This document shows positions 1,146-13,622 of a DNA stretch of 24,667 bases, piece after piece. The notes under the pieces are model-generated. The model was not told the origin of the DNA. It did no database searches and saw only the letters and a program-made list of their open reading frames with translations. This DNA is from a virus: the IMG/VR virus record IMGVR_UViG_3300044941_000405, positions 1-24,667 of that record. One strand, written 5' to 3'. Positions within the stretch are counted from its first letter, which is position 1, and each line of letters opens with the position of its first letter. A program made the position numbers and the translations under genes.

Positions 1146-1321
1146 TTTCGAGGCCTTTTGCCGCAAAAATCGCAGCGAGATAGATATTTTTTTTGGCCAT
1201 TTCTCAGCACAAAACGTACTGTAATAACGTTTCCGCGCCCACAGTCCGAGCACAAAACCTCTTGAGTTGCAATGTCGTTTTCGCGACTATTTGGTTTTTT
1301 TACCTTTCTCTTTTTTGGCAT
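1142..1321 (-). CDS. Small zinc-ribbon protein (59 aa)
   Basis: Two CxxC pairs, CSDC and CDFC, separated by about 20 residues with a basic, aromatic loop between them, form a classic zinc ribbon. The N-terminus is strongly basic (MPKKRKVKKP), which suggests nucleic-acid contact. The ATG at 1321 is chosen over an upstream in-frame ATG at 1357 because an A/G-rich stretch (AAAGAAGAAAC) precedes it and it reduces overlap with the metallophosphoesterase gene from 71 to 35 bases. Its stop overlaps the next gene's start as ATGA. Small zinc ribbons of this kind are common in phages and often bind RNA polymerase or DNA; the specific role is unknown. Confidence 0.7.
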   Translation of the reverse strand: MPKKRKVKKPNSRENDIATQEVLCSDCGRGNVITVRFVLRNGQKKYLSRCDFCGKRPRK

Positions 1322-3107
1322 GTTGTTTCTTCTTTGATGGATTACCCCAGTCGCCATCGATTATGTTAATAAGCTGTCTTGACCCGTTTGGATAAATAAT
1401 GCAATGAGTATTAAGCCAGCTACTCGGCCCCTTATTATAAGATAATCTTAATTTAGTTGATGTCCCTACTCTATATACACCACGCAATATCTCAGGTGTA
1501 TGAGAGTGGGCACTGACGATGGGCCCATAAGACTGCTCAAGCGCAACAGCACTAGGATGTCGAGAGCCATTGGCTCCAAGATCGCCATGGACACCACACT
1601 GGATTTTATGAACCATATAGTCTTCATCTCTTTTCAGAAAACGAATTTTATGGAAATTTTTCATACGGGTTTGCATGGCATGGACAATAGGGTCTTTGCC
1701 GTTACACATGGCATTAGACAATTCTAGCGCGCAGGAAAAGTTATGCGGGTCTTTGCGATATAGTTCTTTTCGACAATATTTTTCTACAAAATCATCATGA
1801 TTAGATTTTACCCAAGCAAACTCTTCAAATAGGTCGGACATATAATCAATATCTTTTGCGCATTCTGTTAATTCGCTTTCCAAACTAAACCTTGACGCTT
1901 TTAATCTTTCATCTTTAGAAATCAGGTCGTCTGATTCATGGTGATTGATGGAGTGGCCATTAAAAACGTCATGAAAGACACCTATTTTAGGCTTTAATGT
2001 CTTGATCATTTCAATTGTGGCAGCTTTCACTTTTGGGCAAGTATCTCCAACATGCCAATCCCCGCATACAATGGCGGTAGCTCCTGTCCATTGTTTTTGG
2101 CCACTGGCGGTATATTTATACCCCAAATCAATAAATGAACCAGAAGCCAGTTCGGCCTGAACCTGTCTTACGTGGTAAACTTCATCATTAACAATTTCAA
2201 CTACCAATGCCCCCAATACGTGGTCCATGTCAGCTATATAGCCGCTGCGTTTTAAATCGCCCTCATCATTACTATAATCAGGCTTAGTAACGGCCCCTGG
2301 AGACATAATAAGGTGACACATCTTTTCATTACTTACCGGAACGGCTTTTAGTCTTTGCTTAGGCGATGCAAGTATGAAACTACCTTCACGCTGACAAATA
2401 CGATTCAATCCAGTTACTGGGTCGACCTGTGTAGGATTGATAAAGATATTGCTTATAAATAGATTGTTATTAAGTCTCAAATTTTCATGTACAAAGTTTA
2501 GACCAGTTAAACTGGGGTCAAAAAGACCATTCTTTTTTTCACTAAAAAATGCTGGCAATATTAATAGTTCTGCCTTTTCATGTTTAGTAAAACTTTTAAG
2601 TGCGGACAAAAACTTTTTATGTAATTTGCTGCCAGCCACTGCGGTAGTAATAATATACTTATTAACCCCTTTGGCTTTTTTGGCTACTTCTGCCATTTTG
2701 AGAAAGTTATAAATATGGGGCTGTTTTGTGACATCATATGCAGCTTTGTGCAACTTTTGTAGCGTATCAAAATTGTGGCGAACCATGGCTGAAGTAATAC
2801 CCATACCGCTTAACTCTGTCCTAGAGGGCATCCGTCCATGTTTTGAAGAAAACTCGCACACTTTGTTTACGATTTCGGATACGCGATTTGCTTGTTTTAC
2901 AGCTTGCGGATGCTCCAAATTATTGCCACTTTTATTTTGTTTTTCTTTAATTAAAGCCCATAGGCCGGCGTAATTGGCAAAGTGGTGCCTTACCATATGT
3001 CTGGTGACGCCAGCTTTTATCAAATCAACACTAGAAGGTAAATTACCTGTCTGCCTTGTGATTTTAAGCGCAATATCAATTATACGCTGTTTCTGTGGGC
3101 TTACCAT
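1287..3107 (-). CDS. Metallophosphoesterase with tandem N-terminal HTH-like repeats (606 aa)
   Basis: The C-terminal half (about residues 343-590) carries the ordered calcineurin-type metal motifs: GDWH (D350, H352), HDVFNGH (D380), SNHDD (N436, H437), GVHGD (H507) and AHSHTPE (H534, H536). These predict a two-metal phosphodiesterase or nuclease. The N-terminus has two related repeats, about residues 9-54 and 75-123, each ending in a G(V/I)T..MVRH.F helix-turn-helix-like segment, so a DNA-bound enzyme is likely. The middle, 130-340, is unassigned. The tail is very lysine-rich. The start follows the upstream stop directly (TAAATG) with AAAAGGG as ribosome site. Large phage metallophosphoesterases such as the T5 A1 type come to mind, but this is from memory and unverified. 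Confidence 0.8.
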   Translation of the reverse strand: MVSPQKQRIIDIALKITRQTGNLPSSVDLIKAGVTRHMVRHHFANYAGLWALIKEKQNKSGNNLEHPQAVKQANRVSEIVNKVCEFSSKHGRMPSRTELSGMGITSAMVRHNFDTLQKLHKAAYDVTKQPHIYNFLKMAEVAKKAKGVNKYIITTAVAGSKLHKKFLSALKSFTKHEKAELLILPAFFSEKKNGLFDPSLTGLNFVHENLRLNNNLFISNIFINPTQVDPVTGLNRICQREGSFILASPKQRLKAVPVSNEKMCHLIMSPGAVTKPDYSNDEGDLKRSGYIADMDHVLGALVVEIVNDEVYHVRQVQAELASGSFIDLGYKYTASGQKQWTGATAIVCGDWHVGDTCPKVKAATIEMIKTLKPKIGVFHDVFNGHSINHHESDDLISKDERLKASRFSLESELTECAKDIDYMSDLFEEFAWVKSNHDDFVEKYCRKELYRKDPHNFSCALELSNAMCNGKDPIVHAMQTRMKNFHKIRFLKRDEDYMVHKIQCGVHGDLGANGSRHPSAVALEQSYGPIVSAHSHTPEILRGVYRVGTSTKLRLSYNKGPSSWLNTHCIIYPNGSRQLINIIDGDWGNPSKKKQHAKKEKGKKTK

Positions 3108-5645: not shown

Positions 5646-6062
5646 ATTTTGTTTGTCATTAAATATAAAATCTTCCAGGCTATATATTACATTCTTATGA
5701 ACCACTGAGCCTACTGACTCTATTTCTTTCCCCGCCTTATATAAATTCCTGTCAGACAGGTTTCTTAAATACTTGCATGCATTATCTACTGAAAACGGTA
5801 CGATATAGAATTCTTCCAATTTTCTACCTTCTAAGGTAGCCAATATTGCAGCATAGGTAGCTGCATCGTGCTCATCTACAAAAACTCTGCATATTCCAGC
5901 CGATTTTTTGCGAGAACTTTTTTCTAGGTACATCACTTTTTTATTGTTTCCGGTCCGTAGAAAGCATATATATATCAATTGGTTATCTTGTAACTTTTTA
6001 TAATATTTAACAAATAGTTCCCTGGGCGGCGATAATTTAAGCAGATGCTTGCGCTTTTTCAT
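5637..6062 (-). CDS. Unknown protein (141 aa) overlapping the end of sbcC
   Basis: Start placed at the ATG at 6062, preceded by TAGGA at a 7-8-base spacing. An in-frame ATG at 6098 has no ribosome site and would lie deep in sbcC. The gene overlaps sbcC by 26 bases. The product begins with a basic stretch (MKKRKHLLKL) and looks alpha/beta and soluble, with no recognised motif or membrane segment. The coupling to sbcC hints at a recombination or replication accessory role, but that is inference. Confidence 0.65.
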   Translation of the reverse strand: MKKRKHLLKLSPPRELFVKYYKKLQDNQLIYICFLRTGNNKKVMYLEKSSRKKSAGICRVFVDEHDAATYAAILATLEGRKLEEFYIVPFSVDNACKYLRNLSDRNLYKAGKEIESVGSVVHKNVIYSLEDFIFNDKQNMV

Positions 6063-7749
6063 ACATGGTCCTAGATGAAGCCCCGTCATAGTATACATTT
6101 ACTATTTGACTAAACAGCTCTTTAATTTCTGTGGCATGATCTATAACCAAAACAGTACCTGCAATATTTGTTTTGATTACCTCTAGCGCGGCATATTTAT
6201 TTTCAGTGTCTAGGCCGTCCAGAGCTTCGTCCATGGCTGCAAAATTAAGCTGTATTCCATTTCTGCGCAATACAACAGACCTCAATGCTAAATCTACACA
6301 TAGCTCTAAACTGGACTGCTGCCCACCGGAAAGATTTTTATAAACAACAGGAACCCCTGCCTTATACAAATTAGTAGATATCTGGTTCTTTGTTGCCCCA
6401 GATTTTGTTATAGTTTCTGTGCTAAAAGAAACTGTCAAGTCTTGTACATTGGGTATTTTTGCCATTAAAGAATTGGCCTCTGATGCAATTTCTGATAAAA
6501 CCTCGGCAAAGAAAACCCCCAAAAACCCCGATCTTCCTATTGCTTGAGCGGCAAGGCGATCTACTTCGATGTCCTTTTCAAGCGCAGAGGCCTGTTTTTT
6601 AGCCAAACTAAGTTGTTCTAAGGCTCGCTGCCTGTTAATTTTAGCCTGATTTATGGCAGCCATCTGGGCATTTAAAGATCGCAATAAGGTTGCCCTACTG
6701 GCTGATGCGCTACTCAATTCCGACTTTTTGGCATATAGTTCTCTATATTTAGACTGCATAGCATCAATATCGGATTTCACCTGCGGCAGAGCTGCCAGCT
6801 TAGCTATATTATTTTTATAGGTGTTTAATAGTAATTCTAGCTCCGATTTCATGCGCTCCAATGCGCTTTGACTATCTGGCCAATCTTGAGTACACGTTGG
6901 GCAAATACGTTCCGCTGTTTTTTTAATATTATATGCAAGCACAGATGCTTTTGATTTAATTCCTGACTGCTCAGCTATTATGGAATTTAGGCTTTCATAT
7001 TGTGCAGTTAATTGCGCTAAATTTTGCGAAACAGTTCGCAACTCAGCATCCACTGAAGATTCAGAGTTTTTTAAGTCTTCGGACACTTGTCGTTCTAAGT
7101 CAGAGATTTGTGTTTGTAAAGATAACACCTCTGATTCATCGGGCTCTAAGCATGACGATAAATGTTTTTCATTGGCCATAATTTGACCTTGAAGATTCGA
7201 TAACATAGTTTCTTTATTTTTAATATCAGCATTAAGTTTTTCAGAGGCAGATTCTAGCTCATTTAAGCCTAGGGTGGCGGCCAAGAATTCTTTTTTTTGT
7301 GAGTCGGTGAAATTAATAAACGAACCTTGAGTGCGTTGCATCCGGAAAACTATGTTTCTTAGCAGGTTACGAGGAACCCCCACTAAAGTATCCAAATAGC
7401 CTTCTAAATCAGATGACATTCCTGAAATATCTTGACCATTAACAAGAATGGACAATTTCGGTCTTCTACGCACCTCAATTAACTCACCCGATTCGTTAGT
7501 TAAAAATAAAGACACTGATAGGTTTTTTTCGTACTTATTAATCAGTTCGGTCGCAGGTATATCACATACACCCAAAGCATATGCGATAGCAAGAATAATT
7601 GACGATTTGCCGGAGCCCGAAGATAAATTTGGGCTGCCATCGTACTGTCCTGAAATTAAAACTAATCCGCCATTAGGTTCAAAATCAACCTCGTGATGGC
7701 CACGAAACGATCGGAAATTATCTAACTCCAGTTTTACCAGTTTTAGCAT
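6037..7749 (-). CDS. sbcC: SbcC/Rad50/gp46-like recombination ATPase (570 aa)
   Basis: An SMC-type ABC ATPase split by a coiled coil. The N-terminus has KLELDNFRSF then Walker A GSGKSS at 45-50, preceded by a longer loop than usual (GQYDGSPNLSS). Long heptad regions flank a zinc hook CPTC at 283-286. The C-terminal lobe has signature LSGGQQSS at 473-480, Walker B with D-loop NFAAMDEALDGLD at 502-514, and the H-loop VIDHAT at 535-540. At 570 aa it is short, like phage gp46, rather than bacterial SbcC (about 1000 aa). With SbcD it should form a Mre11-Rad50-type nuclease that processes ends for recombination-dependent replication. The partner sbcD is not adjacent but at 15018 on the other strand. 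The ribosome site AAAAGG lies inside the aminotransferase gene, which overlaps by 32 bases. Confidence 0.92.
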   Translation of the reverse strand: MLKLVKLELDNFRSFRGHHEVDFEPNGGLVLISGQYDGSPNLSSGSGKSSIILAIAYALGVCDIPATELINKYEKNLSVSLFLTNESGELIEVRRRPKLSILVNGQDISGMSSDLEGYLDTLVGVPRNLLRNIVFRMQRTQGSFINFTDSQKKEFLAATLGLNELESASEKLNADIKNKETMLSNLQGQIMANEKHLSSCLEPDESEVLSLQTQISDLERQVSEDLKNSESSVDAELRTVSQNLAQLTAQYESLNSIIAEQSGIKSKASVLAYNIKKTAERICPTCTQDWPDSQSALERMKSELELLLNTYKNNIAKLAALPQVKSDIDAMQSKYRELYAKKSELSSASASRATLLRSLNAQMAAINQAKINRQRALEQLSLAKKQASALEKDIEVDRLAAQAIGRSGFLGVFFAEVLSEIASEANSLMAKIPNVQDLTVSFSTETITKSGATKNQISTNLYKAGVPVVYKNLSGGQQSSLELCVDLALRSVVLRRNGIQLNFAAMDEALDGLDTENKYAALEVIKTNIAGTVLVIDHATEIKELFSQIVNVYYDGASSRTMYEKAQASA

Positions 7750-8833
7750 TAGTTAGCCTTTTAATTAATAATTTAAAATCTAAATCATCCCCACACAAAT
7801 TTATCCTAAAACTATCGGGTTTGTCAAAAAAATAATCACCCCATAGCACTTTTAGTCCGAGGGTATTCTCAATATAGTCCTGTATGTAATTGATTTTGCT
7901 ATGTTTTCTTGGCCCAAGCTCACTGACTTTTTTTGATTTGGTCTTTGCAGTGGCCCACACATACATACCTTCTTTGTTATTAACTTTTATTACTATGTTA
8001 TTGTTTTTGTTGTGTTTTTTAATTGCACTATTAAATAATTTTCTTCTGGCCAGAATTTCTTTTCTGATAGACTCCATATAAGTTTTAGCTCTACTGCCTA
8101 GAATCCATTTTTCTAAAATATTATTAAAACTCTTAATAGCTGGTTTAGATATGCCTATAGTAGTAATCTCCACGTACTCTTCCATATATTTAGCGATATC
8201 GCTGTCAGTAACAGTGGCCCAGCCAAGTCTGATGCCAGGAACCCCTATCGCTTTGGCAGCGCTATAAATGCAAACCACGGAATTATATTTTTTGACGTTT
8301 TTGGTATAAAACGGCCAATTATAACAAGAATCATAACACGCCGGCCATGGAGCCGTGTTATTATATATAGAGCCATCTGGATTGTTTGGACTTACTATAA
8401 CATGGCAAGTGTCACTGGAAGGCTGTGTAGGTATTTCTTTATTAGGAAAAAGAGTTTTTAGGGCATCATGATACGCCAAAACTCCCATATTAAATAGCGC
8501 AGGAACACGCGGCCAAATTGTTTTTTGTATGCTTACCCCTGACGTACAGCCGTATTTTTTAGCAAACGCATATCCAGCAGCCGACAGAAGCTGCGAAGCC
8601 CCCAGTGCAAACACAATATGCTTATTTTTACAATCGTCATTTCCGGCGACGGCATGCAGTCGCTTAATAAGCGTTCTGGCAGTATCCAAATAAAATTCAG
8701 TCGATTGTGGAAAATAATAGGTATTATTGTCGTATTGGTTTCCTGGAATATATTTTAAAAAAATAGTAGGCTGGCCGACGCTAAGATCAATCCTGTGATT
8801 CGCGTGGATCCTTTGTCCGTTCCGAGTGGGCAT
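7718..8833 (-). CDS. Alliinase / tryptophan-aminotransferase (TAA1)-like PLP enzyme (371 aa)
   Basis: A fold-type I pyridoxal-phosphate enzyme of the alliinase C-terminal family. Seen in order: IDLSVGQPTIF (15-25), matching the family's N-terminal DHGDPTMF; ALGASQLLSAA (76-86), the cofactor phosphate loop; SPNNPDG (148-154), with the Asn that contacts the ring; YDSCYNWPFYT (167-177), matching the family's YDLAYYWPHYT with D168 for the pyridine nitrogen; SAAKAIGVPGIRLGWA (191-206), with K194 as the likely Schiff-base lysine; and SFRINLCGDDLDF (341-353), with R343 for the substrate carboxylate. Known relatives either cleave S-alkyl-cysteine sulfoxides or transaminate tryptophan; the sequence does not say which. 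The plant EGF-like domain is absent. The gene overlaps both neighbours and shares their operon. Such an enzyme is unexpected in a phage. Confidence 0.85.
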   Translation of the reverse strand: MPTRNGQRIHANHRIDLSVGQPTIFLKYIPGNQYDNNTYYFPQSTEFYLDTARTLIKRLHAVAGNDDCKNKHIVFALGASQLLSAAGYAFAKKYGCTSGVSIQKTIWPRVPALFNMGVLAYHDALKTLFPNKEIPTQPSSDTCHVIVSPNNPDGSIYNNTAPWPACYDSCYNWPFYTKNVKKYNSVVCIYSAAKAIGVPGIRLGWATVTDSDIAKYMEEYVEITTIGISKPAIKSFNNILEKWILGSRAKTYMESIRKEILARRKLFNSAIKKHNKNNNIVIKVNNKEGMYVWATAKTKSKKVSELGPRKHSKINYIQDYIENTLGLKVLWGDYFFDKPDSFRINLCGDDLDFKLLIKRLTNAKTGKTGVR

Positions 8834-9050
8834 CGGCTCTCTTCTCCATAAGCTCTTCTATGTTATGCAAACGCTCTACCGCCCTAGCCATTAGTCCGTT
8901 GTCCAGTCTTTCTAGCACCTGAGTGTCGCCAACAGTTAGGACTGGCGTAGATTCTACTCCACAAACTTTACATGCTGAAGTACGGGATCGCCTATCTAGT
9001 TTAACTACGAATTCCCCGTGCTCAGGACATTTATACCTAAACCACCCCAT
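8787..9050 (-). CDS. FmdB-like zinc-ribbon protein (87 aa)
   Basis: The N-terminal half has YKCPEHGEF (C9, H12) and ACKVCG (C27, C30), a Cys/His plus CxxC zinc ribbon like the FmdB-type regulatory domain common in phages. The C-terminal half is a charged helix (LERLDNGLMARAVERLHNIE, residues 47-66, and following). The start overlaps the chaperonin stop as TAATG, and the 3' end overlaps the PLP-enzyme gene by 47 bases. It could be a transcription-associated or nucleic-acid-binding adaptor; function not established. Confidence 0.75.
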   Translation of the reverse strand: MGWFRYKCPEHGEFVVKLDRRSRTSACKVCGVESTPVLTVGDTQVLERLDNGLMARAVERLHNIEELMEKRADAHSERTKDPRESQD

Positions 9051-10828
9051 TATTCTGCCAAACTACCCCTAATACCAGAGGCTCCCTCAAAACGACGTAC
9101 AAAGTCTGCTTCTTTTCGATCTTCTATAACATCTCGCTGAAAACATACTATACCTCCAAGAGTCCCGAGCAAAGAGGCGATAGATATGCTATTTCTTAGG
9201 GCTTCTGTAACCGCAGGGTATGAATCTAGTAACTGGAATTTACTAACCCACTTCTGATTTTCGATATCAAATGTTTCATTAAACCTAACCTCTAGCTGGG
9301 CCATAAATTCGTCAATTTCTTCTGGCCTGTAACCGTAATTTTCATACAGTTGGCGTACAGGCCGTATTACACTGTCTTTCAAAATATCTATAGCCATTTT
9401 TTTAGGTCCTGGAGTAGGCTCGGAATTGCTTAAATCTGACAGATATCGGGCAACCTGGACCAAAGTCCATCCACCACCAGGAAGTGCTCCGTATTTTACA
9501 GCTCCACGTATAGCCATCCAAGCATCTTCTGCTCTATCTCTTTTTTCGCGGCTTTCACCTGCCGAAGGAGCATAAATAGTAAGTCTAGCTATACCAGAAG
9601 TTAGTTTTCCGATTCGTACCTTAAGATCGTTAGCTTCATATTCGCTTTCTGGAACAATAGTTTTAAGCGCCTCTACTCGTTCCTTAATTGCATCAAAATC
9701 TTCTTCTGCAATAATAGTTGACCTAAATCTATTAGCCTCAAATTTTTTGATTTTATTCAGTGATACTAATACTTCTGGATTTAGTTCAGATAGCGGTCGG
9801 TCTAGCGGGTTAAACACTGAGGTTCCTGCATATGCCTGCAAATCGTATAAAAATTGGGTTTGGCCGTTTGCAATAGCATTTTTAGGTGTTAAAACAGGGT
9901 ATACCTTGGCAGAAGTATGTGGGGAATTCCAGTTATAGTTTAAATCAGCTATTACGGCATCTGAGAAACCGTGAGCCACCAAAAGGACACCCCTATCGTG
10001 ACGTTTTGTTTCCTCAAAAAATAGACCAATTTTTTGTAAAGGATCAAAAACTTGGTTAAGATCGTTAATTACGCCATCAAATAAAATAGCAACCGGACGA
10101 TCCAAAACTACTTGAGTACCAGATCGATCATTGATAAAAGCCTGGGCCATATTTTTACAAGATTCCTCATATCCGGTCTCGATAGCGTATCCATTAATTT
10201 TATCAATTTTATATTCACTTACGCCAGAAGCCTCAATTATAGTTAAGTTACCATCTTCTCCAACTATATCAAAAGCCTCTGCCACTGACTTTGCCAAGTC
10301 TTCATCACCGTTAGCTGAGAGCAGTGCAACATTATATATAAATTCTGAATAACAATCGTGGTTTACTTTCATCGCATATGAATCAATTTTATTTAAAATA
10401 TCTGGCAATATTTTTTGCATCTCTCTGACAATCTTTTGTGGGCTTTGTTTACTGCCCTCACTAGACTGCAAATACTTTCGCGTGTTTTCGGCAATCGCAG
10501 CTGCTAAAATAGTGCTAGTTGTAGTACCGTCACCAGCTTCTGAAGCTGTGCGTATTGAGGCATCTCTAGCAGACTCTAACACTAGCTGTTTAAGTGAATC
10601 GTGGTAGCCCAGAGATTTAATAACCGTAACACCGTCTTTAGTTACAATAGGTTTCATGTTCATTTCTGGTCTTTCTATCAAAACAGGCCGGCCCCCTGGC
10701 CCTAAAGTAGCCCCAACCATTAAAGACATATGATTTAGCGTACTTACAACAATTTCTTGCAGTTTTTCACTGCCAGGTACCATTTCTTTAGCTGCTGATT
10801 TTGGTTTACCGGTTTGAAATAAGGCCAT
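9050..10828 (-). CDS. groL: GroEL/Hsp60-like chaperonin (592 aa)
   Basis: Clear group I chaperonin. ATP-site motifs align with GroEL: GATLGPGGRPV (39-49), TKDGVTV (63-69), GDGTTT (99-104, with the Asp equivalent to D87), AEDAW (433-437, Asp equivalent to the catalytic D398), PGGG (450-453), and a Asp at 535 where GroEL has D495. The apical region with INGYAIETGY (211-220) is present. It is about 44 residues longer than GroEL, with an N-terminal extension and extra sequence before the second ATP-site half, and lacks the Gly-Gly-Met tail. Phage GroEL homologues (for example in phage EL) fold phage proteins. A strong AGGGAGGG site precedes the start, which overlaps the upstream stop. A possible GroES-like partner is at 14702-15013. 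Confidence 0.95.
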   Translation of the reverse strand: MALFQTGKPKSAAKEMVPGSEKLQEIVVSTLNHMSLMVGATLGPGGRPVLIERPEMNMKPIVTKDGVTVIKSLGYHDSLKQLVLESARDASIRTASEAGDGTTTSTILAAAIAENTRKYLQSSEGSKQSPQKIVREMQKILPDILNKIDSYAMKVNHDCYSEFIYNVALLSANGDEDLAKSVAEAFDIVGEDGNLTIIEASGVSEYKIDKINGYAIETGYEESCKNMAQAFINDRSGTQVVLDRPVAILFDGVINDLNQVFDPLQKIGLFFEETKRHDRGVLLVAHGFSDAVIADLNYNWNSPHTSAKVYPVLTPKNAIANGQTQFLYDLQAYAGTSVFNPLDRPLSELNPEVLVSLNKIKKFEANRFRSTIIAEEDFDAIKERVEALKTIVPESEYEANDLKVRIGKLTSGIARLTIYAPSAGESREKRDRAEDAWMAIRGAVKYGALPGGGWTLVQVARYLSDLSNSEPTPGPKKMAIDILKDSVIRPVRQLYENYGYRPEEIDEFMAQLEVRFNETFDIENQKWVSKFQLLDSYPAVTEALRNSISIASLLGTLGGIVCFQRDVIEDRKEADFVRRFEGASGIRGSLAE

Positions 10829-12006: not shown

Positions 12007-12089
12007 AAAATCTGTCTATCAAGACTTACTTATTATAATTTATTTATTAAAACCTATTTATAATATCTTAGTCTTGATAGACAGATTTT
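12007..12089. repeat. Perfect 20-bp inverted repeat with 43-bp AT-rich spacer
   Basis: AAAATCTGTCTATCAAGACT at 12007-12026 is the exact reverse complement of AGTCTTGATAGACAGATTTT at 12070-12089; the next base pair on either side does not match. The spacer (12027-12069) is nearly all A and T. It is too widely spaced for a standard terminator hairpin and lies upstream of both divergent genes, so a protein-binding pair of sites (operator or origin) is more likely. Each arm is not itself a palindrome, which suggests one bound unit per arm in opposite orientation. Confidence 0.85.
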
Positions 12090-12094
12090 TAATC

Positions 12095-12115
12095 AAACTA
12101 CTACTTAAACTACTA
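12095..12115 (+). repeat. Two direct copies of AAACTACTA, 12-bp period
   Basis: AAACTACTA occurs at 12095-12103 and 12107-12115, just right of the inverted repeat. Only two copies exist, so it may be chance in AT-rich DNA, or a minimal iteron or regulator site. No third copy was seen in the intergenic region. Confidence 0.35.
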
Positions 12116-12145
12116 ACACAACCCCAACCGCTATAATTACAATTT

Positions 12146-12162
12146 ATGGTATAAGTATTTGA
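12146..12162 (+). promoter_or_regulatory. Promoter-like ATGGTATAAG motif, rightward, apparently leaderless
   Basis: AATTTATGGTATAAG places a TGG-TATAAG extended -10-like element at 12147-12155. Six bases (TATTTG) separate the hexamer from the A of the ATG at 12162, where a sigma-70-type promoter would start transcription. No ribosome site lies in between. The arrangement mirrors that of the leftward gene at 11958. Confidence 0.55.
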
Positions 12163-13622
12163 TGGAATTAAAATTAAGATCACCTACTACTATATGGCTC
12201 CCTGAAGACAATGAAAGAACAAGAAAATTATTAACTTATACTGATTTGCAAGTACAATTTCAGATTAAAAAATTAAAAGAATCTATGAGATGGAACAGGT
12301 ATGATAACGAATATTATAAGAATAGAATGGAGCAACTACAAAATCAATTAAAACAAGTACTTGTTAAATATGATCCTTCTACAGGTGACCCGTACACATA
12401 TACAGGACTAGCTGACCTTTTACACGAAACATTTGGTTGGTCTAAACCTACCTTAACTCCTGCAATCAGTACTAAATTAATTCCTTGGGCTAATATGCCT
12501 CCTGACCTTAGATATTATCAAAGAGAAACAATTGATGCCCTACGCTCGCAGGTTCATGGTGCAGCCAGCTTGCCGACTGGTACTGGGAAAACAATGTGCA
12601 TACTTTATCTAGTAAAAGAAAATCCGGTTAAAACGATCATTGTTACCCCATATACTAATATTACTAATCAGATATATGACCTTTTTTGTCACTTCTTAGG
12701 GAAAAAATATGTTGGTAAATATGGAGATGGGAAAAAAGAATACGATAAACTTATAACTATATCTACTGCACAAAGTTTAGCTAAGTTACCTGAAGATTCT
12801 GAGGCCTACAAAAGCTTATCCGAGGCTAAAACCATGATATTTGATGAAGCACATTTTGTCCCTTGCGAAACCATGGAACATGTATGCCTTGGACTTTGCG
12901 GCAATGCCATTAATAGGTATTTCTTTTCCGCTACTCATGTAAGAGGAGATGGTTCAGAGCTATTATTGCGAGGAATCACAGGGCCAATTGCCTATTCTAA
13001 AACGTTTCCAGAAATGGTTGAAAAAGGGTTTTTAAAAAAACCTATATTTAAACTTTTTACCACCAGTCCTTATGGGGACTGTAATAAAAAAGATGTAAAA
13101 TCAGAAACAAGAAAACAGATTTATGAAAACCCAAATGTAAATAAGACAGTAGGTGCCGTTGTTTCTTTGGCTATGAAAAAAGGCAGGCAAGTGTTGATTA
13201 TTATTGAAGAATTTAAACAATTCGTTAAACTGATCAATTATCTAACCGTTCCTTTTGAATTTGTACACGGTGGAGTTAGTCAGGATGCTAAAGATATAGT
13301 TCCAGAACACTATTGGGTTAGTGATACTAAAGCTGCTATTGATAGATTTAATGCTGGTGAAACAAAAGTATTAATAGGAACTTCTGCAATATCTACTGGT
13401 GTAGATTTAAAACCAGTTGGATGCCTTATTTATCTTCAGGGAGGTATATCAGAAATAAAAATAAAACAAGGTATAGGCAGGGGTACCAGAATGTGTGATA
13501 ATTTAAAAGATTTTTGGGTGGTTGATTTTAATATCATGGGCTCAAAATCTATGGAAAGGCATTATGCCATTCGTAAATCATATTATGAAGAAATGGGCCC
13601 AATAGAGGAATATAATGTATAG
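12162..13622 (+). CDS. SF2 DNA helicase (UvsW-like), 486 aa
   Basis: Superfamily 2 motifs in order: a Q-like LRYYQRETIDAL (about 117-128), motif I SLPTGTGKT (136-144), Ia-like IIVTPY, motif II FDEAH (227-231), motif III FSATH (255-259), motif V IGTSAISTGVDL (near 406-417) and motif VI QGIGRGTR (near 434-441). The layout matches UvsW/RecG-like and type III restriction-like helicases that remodel forks and D-loops in phage recombination-dependent replication. About 110 residues precede the helicase core, partly coiled coil. The start is the ATG at 12162, directly after a TTG. No ribosome site is seen, consistent with a leaderless mRNA. The stop overlaps the start of the sigma-like gene. Confidence 0.85.
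   Translation: MELKLRSPTTIWLPEDNERTRKLLTYTDLQVQFQIKKLKESMRWNRYDNEYYKNRMEQLQNQLKQVLVKYDPSTGDPYTYTGLADLLHETFGWSKPTLTPAISTKLIPWANMPPDLRYYQRETIDALRSQVHGAASLPTGTGKTMCILYLVKENPVKTIIVTPYTNITNQIYDLFCHFLGKKYVGKYGDGKKEYDKLITISTAQSLAKLPEDSEAYKSLSEAKTMIFDEAHFVPCETMEHVCLGLCGNAINRYFFSATHVRGDGSELLLRGITGPIAYSKTFPEMVEKGFLKKPIFKLFTTSPYGDCNKKDVKSETRKQIYENPNVNKTVGAVVSLAMKKGRQVLIIIEEFKQFVKLINYLTVPFEFVHGGVSQDAKDIVPEHYWVSDTKAAIDRFNAGETKVLIGTSAISTGVDLKPVGCLIYLQGGISEIKIKQGIGRGTRMCDNLKDFWVVDFNIMGSKSMERHYAIRKSYYEEMGPIEEYNV

Follow-up and report, generated by a model that had tools for sequence, protein, structure and literature searches.

Gene content and organization of the locus

The window, by which we mean the whole stretch of DNA analyzed, is a virus record of 24,667 bases (IMG/VR IMGVR_UViG_3300044941_000405) that encodes GroEL, SbcC/SbcD, RuvC, a DnaD-like protein and terminase, among others. 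It is an incomplete, 24.7-kb fragment, and genes missing from the window itself cannot be read as absent. A 606-aa protein encoded at 1287-3107 on the minus strand resembles the phage DNA-transfer protein family phrog_1745. A preliminary description placed an ORF for a PLP enzyme at 7718-8833 and named no strand; the ORF exists and lies on the minus strand, with its ATG at 8833 and a TAA stop at 7718-7720, and the plus strand across this interval is full of stops. The features of the region are as follows.

6037-7749, minus strand: SbcC-like nuclease subunit, downstream slot border (phrog_77, 1.5e-55)
7718-7749, minus strand: 32-bp overlap of the PLP gene and the downstream SbcC-like gene
7718-8833, minus strand: TAA1/alliinase-family PLP enzyme, 371 aa (Alliinase_C 3.2e-30; AlphaFold pLDDT 84.7; best PDB match TAA1, Z 33.2)
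7805-7807, minus strand: codon of R343, predicted to bind the substrate carboxylate (TAA1 R363, alliinase R401; by alignment)
8228-8230, minus strand: codon of R202, predicted to bind the PLP phosphate (TAA1 R225; by alignment)
8252-8254, minus strand: codon of K194, the predicted Schiff-base lysine (TAA1 K217, alliinase K251; by alignment, invariant in 18 aligned phage members)
8306-8332, minus strand: codons 168-176, D168..Y171.W173P174.Y176 (TAA1 D191, Y194, W196, P197, Y199; by alignment)
8375-8386, minus strand: codons of the NNPD motif, residues 150-153 (N151 corresponds to TAA1 N168; by alignment)
8787-8833, minus strand: 47-bp overlap of the PLP gene and the upstream zinc-ribbon gene
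8787-9050, minus strand: zinc-ribbon protein, 87 aa, upstream slot border (weak, sub-cut-off zinc-ribbon Pfam matches)
9050-10828, minus strand: divergent GroEL-type chaperonin (phrog_5725, 2e-81)

The overlaps of 47 and 32 bases previously claimed for the PLP gene agree with these coordinates. The upstream overlap is likely to be true because a GGAG-like stretch is found ahead of the ATG and no alternative ATG, GTG or TTG occurs within the next 24 codons; the downstream overlap is accounted for by where the SbcC-like protein naturally starts. The zinc-ribbon gene adjoins GroEL in all relatives of the window phage and in Myxococcus phage Mx1.

Family membership and predicted fold

Enzymes of the TAA1/alliinase family produce the precursor of auxin in plants and, in Allium, the flavour of garlic. 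Alliinase_C (PF04864) was the best Pfam model for the window protein (E=3.2e-30, 105.7 bits; cut-off 22), with Aminotran_1_2 second at 45.1 bits and no other aminotransferase class above it. The model also matched all 18 of the phage members that were aligned (best 4e-62; their recovery is described below); in the jumbo-type outgroup members L174, L177, L178 and L179 the Aminotran_1_2 score exceeds that of Alliinase_C. The Alliinase-EGF N-terminal domain was not listed in the Pfam scans, and the protein begins at the PLP domain. When PDB sequences were searched with the window protein using phmmer, TAA1 (2.8e-18) and alliinase (8.5e-15) were found and the rest were no better than 0.046. A profile of the 18 phage proteins gave 239 bits for TAA1 and 184 for alliinase among all PDB sequences, followed by aspartate aminotransferase at 67.

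The AlphaFold model of the window protein (pLDDT 84.7, pTM 0.85) matched TAA1 (3bwo, Z 33.2) and alliinase (1lk9, 32.9) in what amounts to a tie, and ACC synthase followed at 28.4. In sequence scores TAA1 was ahead of alliinase for each of the 18 phage members compared, so that at the sequence level a TAA1-like enzyme is better supported than an alliinase-like one. A structure search of viral proteins returned distant PLP enzymes of other families and no more. PHROG 5879, a phage family of unassigned function, was matched by 11 of the 18 members (best E 6e-11; window 5e-5), and PADLOC gave nothing meaningful, the sole match being Cas8a at 0.006. Thus Pfam, fold, alignment and tree (see below) all uphold the earlier placement in the alliinase/TAA1 family.

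Conservation of active site residues

Residues N151, D168, Y171, K194, R202 and R343 are invariant across the 18 aligned phage proteins, and K194 and R343 align with K217 and R363 of TAA1 and with K251 and R401 of alliinase. The elements listed in the preliminary description (NPDG, YDSCYNWPFYT, K194 and R343) are all present in the window protein, and the lysine, whose loss in close relatives would have told against the assignment, is retained in every one of the 18. At sites that differ between TAA1 and alliinase and are conserved in the phages, six follow TAA1 (window P22, D153, A214, S229, 253 and 291; at the last two the window protein itself has M253 and Y291) and two follow alliinase (D16 and T225). 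Other residues are specific to the phages: R109 (16/18), E222 (18/18) and, in the C-terminal domain, an invariant G289-M290 followed by an aromatic residue. We take G289-M290 plus the aromatic residue to be an aminotransferase feature lost by both plant enzymes, and R109 and E222 may point to a substrate unlike tryptophan. Because the catalytic residues of TAA1 and alliinase are identical, sequence alone cannot settle between transaminase and lyase chemistry. The window protein is among the most divergent members, with F175 for Q, VPG for HAG and I29 for W, and therefore may differ from the others.

Distribution of the gene in phage genomes

Single-protein scans of viral contigs with the window PLP protein and the window terminase as queries found no relatives, which were recovered instead by means of a GroEL query and profile queries. 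The window GroEL identified 16 IMG/VR loci that are kin of Myxococcus phage Mx1, and tblastn showed wide synteny of the window genes among these Mx1-like loci. In eight lineages (window, L003, L005, L006, L007, L009, L012 and L015) the slot between the zinc-ribbon gene and SbcC holds the PLP gene, which is cleanly missing from it in seven (L002, L004, L008, L010, L013, L017 and Mx1); L006 is the same as L011 and L014, and L013 the same as L016, and each was counted once. The slot borders are within about 20 bp of each other in L002, L010 and L013. In L004 an HNH endonuclease-like ORF (12032-12559) fills the slot instead of the PLP gene. No copy of the PLP gene was found elsewhere in the searched records with an empty slot, nor was a class I/II aminotransferase found in the four PLP-minus phages searched.

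Profile scans yielded further loci, for a total of about 36 IMG/VR contigs with relatives. Among them are a second phage group with the PLP gene (largest contig 86 kb), contigs of up to 369 kb and several distant members of the Mx1-like supergroup, whose copies are a long way from both GroEL and SbcC. Among 50,697 GenBank phage records, three members that were searched had no relative and a fourth had two weak matches; a jumbo-type member likewise gave weak, mostly partial matches to GenBank phages. No phage members of the TAA1/alliinase family were found in the published literature. Thus the family is known, and the phage carrier and the new branches are new.

Selection and history of gain and loss

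Purifying selection on the PLP gene is strong: dN/dS was 0.089/1.148 (about 0.08) for L007-L012 and 0.017/0.166 (0.10) for L023-L025. Since the catalytic set is invariant and dN/dS is about 0.08-0.1, the gene product is very probably a working PLP enzyme, in keeping with the earlier suggestion of a likely active enzyme.

When presence of the gene was mapped onto a phage tree built from GroEL, helicase, terminase, SbcD and SbcC, five changes were needed, at least four of them forced by well supported branches. Because the gene occupies the same slot in divergent phages and yet requires five presence/absence changes, we read it as old in the slot but dispensable, having been lost repeatedly or else regained when the conserved flanks recombined. 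The description of the gene as established rather than a recent insert thus holds, in that it is an old resident found in the same slot of eight divergent phages. For the Mx1-like phages it is optional cargo (an auxiliary metabolic gene) with a fixed slot.

Neighboring genes and candidate partners

Co-varying partners were sought by clustering and phmmer in five PLP-plus and four PLP-minus Mx1-like records, and the PLP gene alone was distributed five to none. Its neighbors vary between lineages. The lack of a fixed partner together with the varying neighbors favors an enzyme that works alone on a common metabolite, and argues against a multi-gene hypermodification pathway. Two candidate partners were considered and rejected: CYTH proteins are near the gene in some phages, but have relatives in a PLP-minus phage as well, and AAA+ ATPases are common to several PLP-plus lineages, but are divergent and not universal.

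Several other genes were encountered in these genomes. CYTH-type (triphosphate tunnel) or possibly related proteins are encoded in G013 (47873-48370), G018 (51900-52355), G004 (137414-138022), G008 (60577-61185) and G014 (100283-100873). Two different phages have genes with 'LHREDGPAVEW'-type repeats close to the PLP gene (L042:7620-7847 and 9293-9781; L177:6801-7061). A subtilisin-like protease with an HGHGT motif occurs in five of five PLP-plus and one of four PLP-minus Mx1-like records (G012 1225-1977, G008 114394-115266 and homologues), and several of these proteases have a signal-peptide-like start. Mx1-like phages also have methionine aminopeptidase-like ORFs (G004 82539-83291, G006 133063-133806, G008 112316-113125) and relatives of the Mx1 peptide deformylase (G014 151957-152433, G008 111334-111810); in G008 the two are close together and may form a pair for N-terminal methionine processing. 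Mx1 itself (OR576727) has NAMPT and NMNAT genes at 124119-127421, a possible NAD salvage module, with no similarity match in the IMG/VR relatives compared.

Relationship to plant and bacterial proteins

The best score of the phage profile in 398 Pseudomonadota genomes was 51 bits and that of Alliinase_C in 398 Bacillota genomes was 43.5 bits, and no clear family member was found in these approximately 800 sampled bacterial genomes. With Arabidopsis TAA1 as a query, the top score was 22 bits among 349 Pseudomonadota genomes and 28 bits among 348 Bacillota genomes; against the phage proteins the same query gave 145 bits for L012, more than 100 bits for 14 and 68 bits for the window protein. Thus, the nearest relatives among the proteins sampled are the plant enzymes, not bacterial ones. 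A degenerate pattern, KxTGH[AS]GxRxGW, which picks up several phage members of the family but is blind to window-type ones, had no true match in 84,980 genomes, and conserved phage peptides scanned against the same set found no relative. An alliinase-type DNA pattern gave three matches, which we regard as chance because all three fall in short open frames that have no relation to the family.

In three trees rooted with bacterial aminotransferases, the clade of phage and plant proteins had support of 100/100, 99/98 and 99/99, the window protein being omitted from the last, so that the phages group with TAA1/alliinase apart from the bacterial class I/II enzymes. Several trees were tried; they contained 5-13 bacterial rows from two phyla and two plant sequences, and have long branches. 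With jumbo-type members included, the plants nest within the phage radiation; constraining all phages to group without the plants was disfavored in two tests (p-AU 0.027 and 0.036) but not in a smaller first set (0.36). The phage motifs are graded from an ordinary aminotransferase form in the jumbo-type members to the TAA1-like KxTGHxGxRxGW. We suggest, as a tentative and rather doubtful proposal, that the TAA1/alliinase family may have its main prokaryotic-side branch in tailed phages, and that the eukaryotic genes, including the first plant auxin-synthesis enzyme, may go back to phage-borne ancestors (or to a bacterial lineage, as yet unsampled, on which phages drew as well).

A 2022 review describes the tryptophan aminotransferase clade as almost exclusive to plants (PMC9309667). 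Where the TAA gene came from is under dispute, and the bacterial match quoted by one side has no more than 25% identity (E=2e-8; PMC4754409). Over the full length, the closest phage proteins share about 30% identity with Arabidopsis TAA1, as do the choanoflagellate homologues cited in the same paper. Since the phage proteins match TAA1 at about 30% and the quoted bacterial protein at only 25%, this phage enzyme family, hitherto undescribed and maintained by selection, is of direct relevance to this disputed point of auxin biosynthesis.

Possible function of the enzyme

The best mechanism we can offer, and one to which our analysis gives an even chance, is that of an aminotransferase working by itself on aromatic or hydrophobic amino acids. 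PLP would be held on K194, with D168 at N1, Y171 at O3' and R202 at the phosphate; Y39 would be contributed by the neighboring subunit, and R343 and N151 would act on the substrate carboxylate. These residue roles are presumed by analogy with TAA1/alliinase and class I aminotransferases. The enzyme would convert an aromatic or hydrophobic L-amino acid to the 2-oxo acid in a TAA1-like ping-pong cycle. We infer the dimeric state, the transaminase rather than lyase chemistry and the substrate class. Acting alone on a host metabolite, the enzyme would confer a host-dependent benefit, so that phages would repeatedly lose or regain the gene. It is a concrete candidate for a new phage metabolic enzyme.

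An alliinase-like C-S beta-lyase, which would convert cysteine derivatives (S-conjugates or sulfoxides) to pyruvate, ammonia and reactive sulfur species, is unlikely. Among solved enzymes alliinase ranks second in closeness (184 bits, Z 32.9) and has every PLP residue in common with the phage proteins, and C-S lyases appear further down the fold list along with kynurenine aminotransferases. However, TAA1 outscores it in 18/18 members, the phages side with TAA1 at most of the differing positions and the EGF-like N-terminal domain is absent. Quite improbable too is another PLP reaction on an arginine-like or specialized amino acid, such as that of a cyclodehydratase, hydroxylase or decarboxylase (compare GntC, VioD, RohP and CobD). 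The best NCBIfam matches of the phage family are GntC, HisC, CobD, beta-methylarginine and capreomycidine models, RohP is in the fold list, and R109 and E222 are phage-specific; but the NCBIfam matches of the window protein are an order of magnitude below the curated cut-offs and far below TAA1/alliinase, and further biosynthesis genes are absent nearby. SAM degradation is known in some phages, and a SAM consumer of the ACC synthase type would lower SAM and blunt host restriction or methylation-dependent defense. ACC synthases are next in the fold list (Z 28.4), but at 45 bits against 239 for TAA1 in the profile search such an enzyme is very unlikely.

PLP enzymes participate in known phage hypermodification pathways of the ViI/M6 type, and a step in DNA base hypermodification had been among the roles proposed for the gene. 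The common intermediate of such pathways is 5hmdU (PMC6449724). A search for the ThyA-type gene (PF00303) found it in only one of six PLP-plus Mx1-like contigs (G004); none of the gene families compared follows the PLP gene without exception, and the contexts of the PLP gene vary by lineage. Hypermodification is therefore disfavored, and we hold it highly improbable. Scarcely more can be said for a non-catalytic, moonlighting partner of the GroEL/SbcC operon, to which we attach the same very low probability. The gene is coupled by overlap to its neighbors in the Mx1-like group, but its catalytic residues are fully conserved under strong purifying selection, seven relatives keep GroEL, the zinc ribbon and SbcC without it, and it sits elsewhere in the genomes of other phages. 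A share in the function of the replication-chaperone operon, within which the preliminary description placed the gene, is likewise not supported, in view of this clean absence, the approximately five gains or losses, the HNH endonuclease that takes the slot in one relative and the distance of the gene from GroEL and SbcC elsewhere.

Comparison with known systems

The phage enzyme has the same fold (Z 33) and the same PLP and carboxylate residues as TAA1, the Arabidopsis L-tryptophan aminotransferase (PDB 3bwn/3bwo), and most phage members also share its KxTGHxGxRxGW-like and YxWPxY signatures. It differs in being phage-encoded and in its R109, E222 and G289-M290, and the window member, which is more divergent, is without the TGH signature. 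Garlic alliinase, the alliin lyase (PDB 1lk9, 2hor), belongs to the same Pfam family and has the same catalytic residues (Z 32.9), but its sequence scores are lower than those of TAA1, its EGF-like domain is absent from the phage protein, and the phages have D153 where alliinase has E209 and S229 where it has P286. Bacterial class I/II aminotransferases (AspAT, HisC, CobD, KAT) have the fold-type-I superfamily in common with the phage enzyme, and presumably also a GMF-like C-terminal motif; those sampled fall outside the phage-plant group with 99-100% support. The similarity to PHROG 5879 is distant only. Myxococcus phage Mx1, the closest cultured phage, has the same order of GroEL, zinc ribbon, SbcC, helicase and terminase as the window, but is without the PLP gene.
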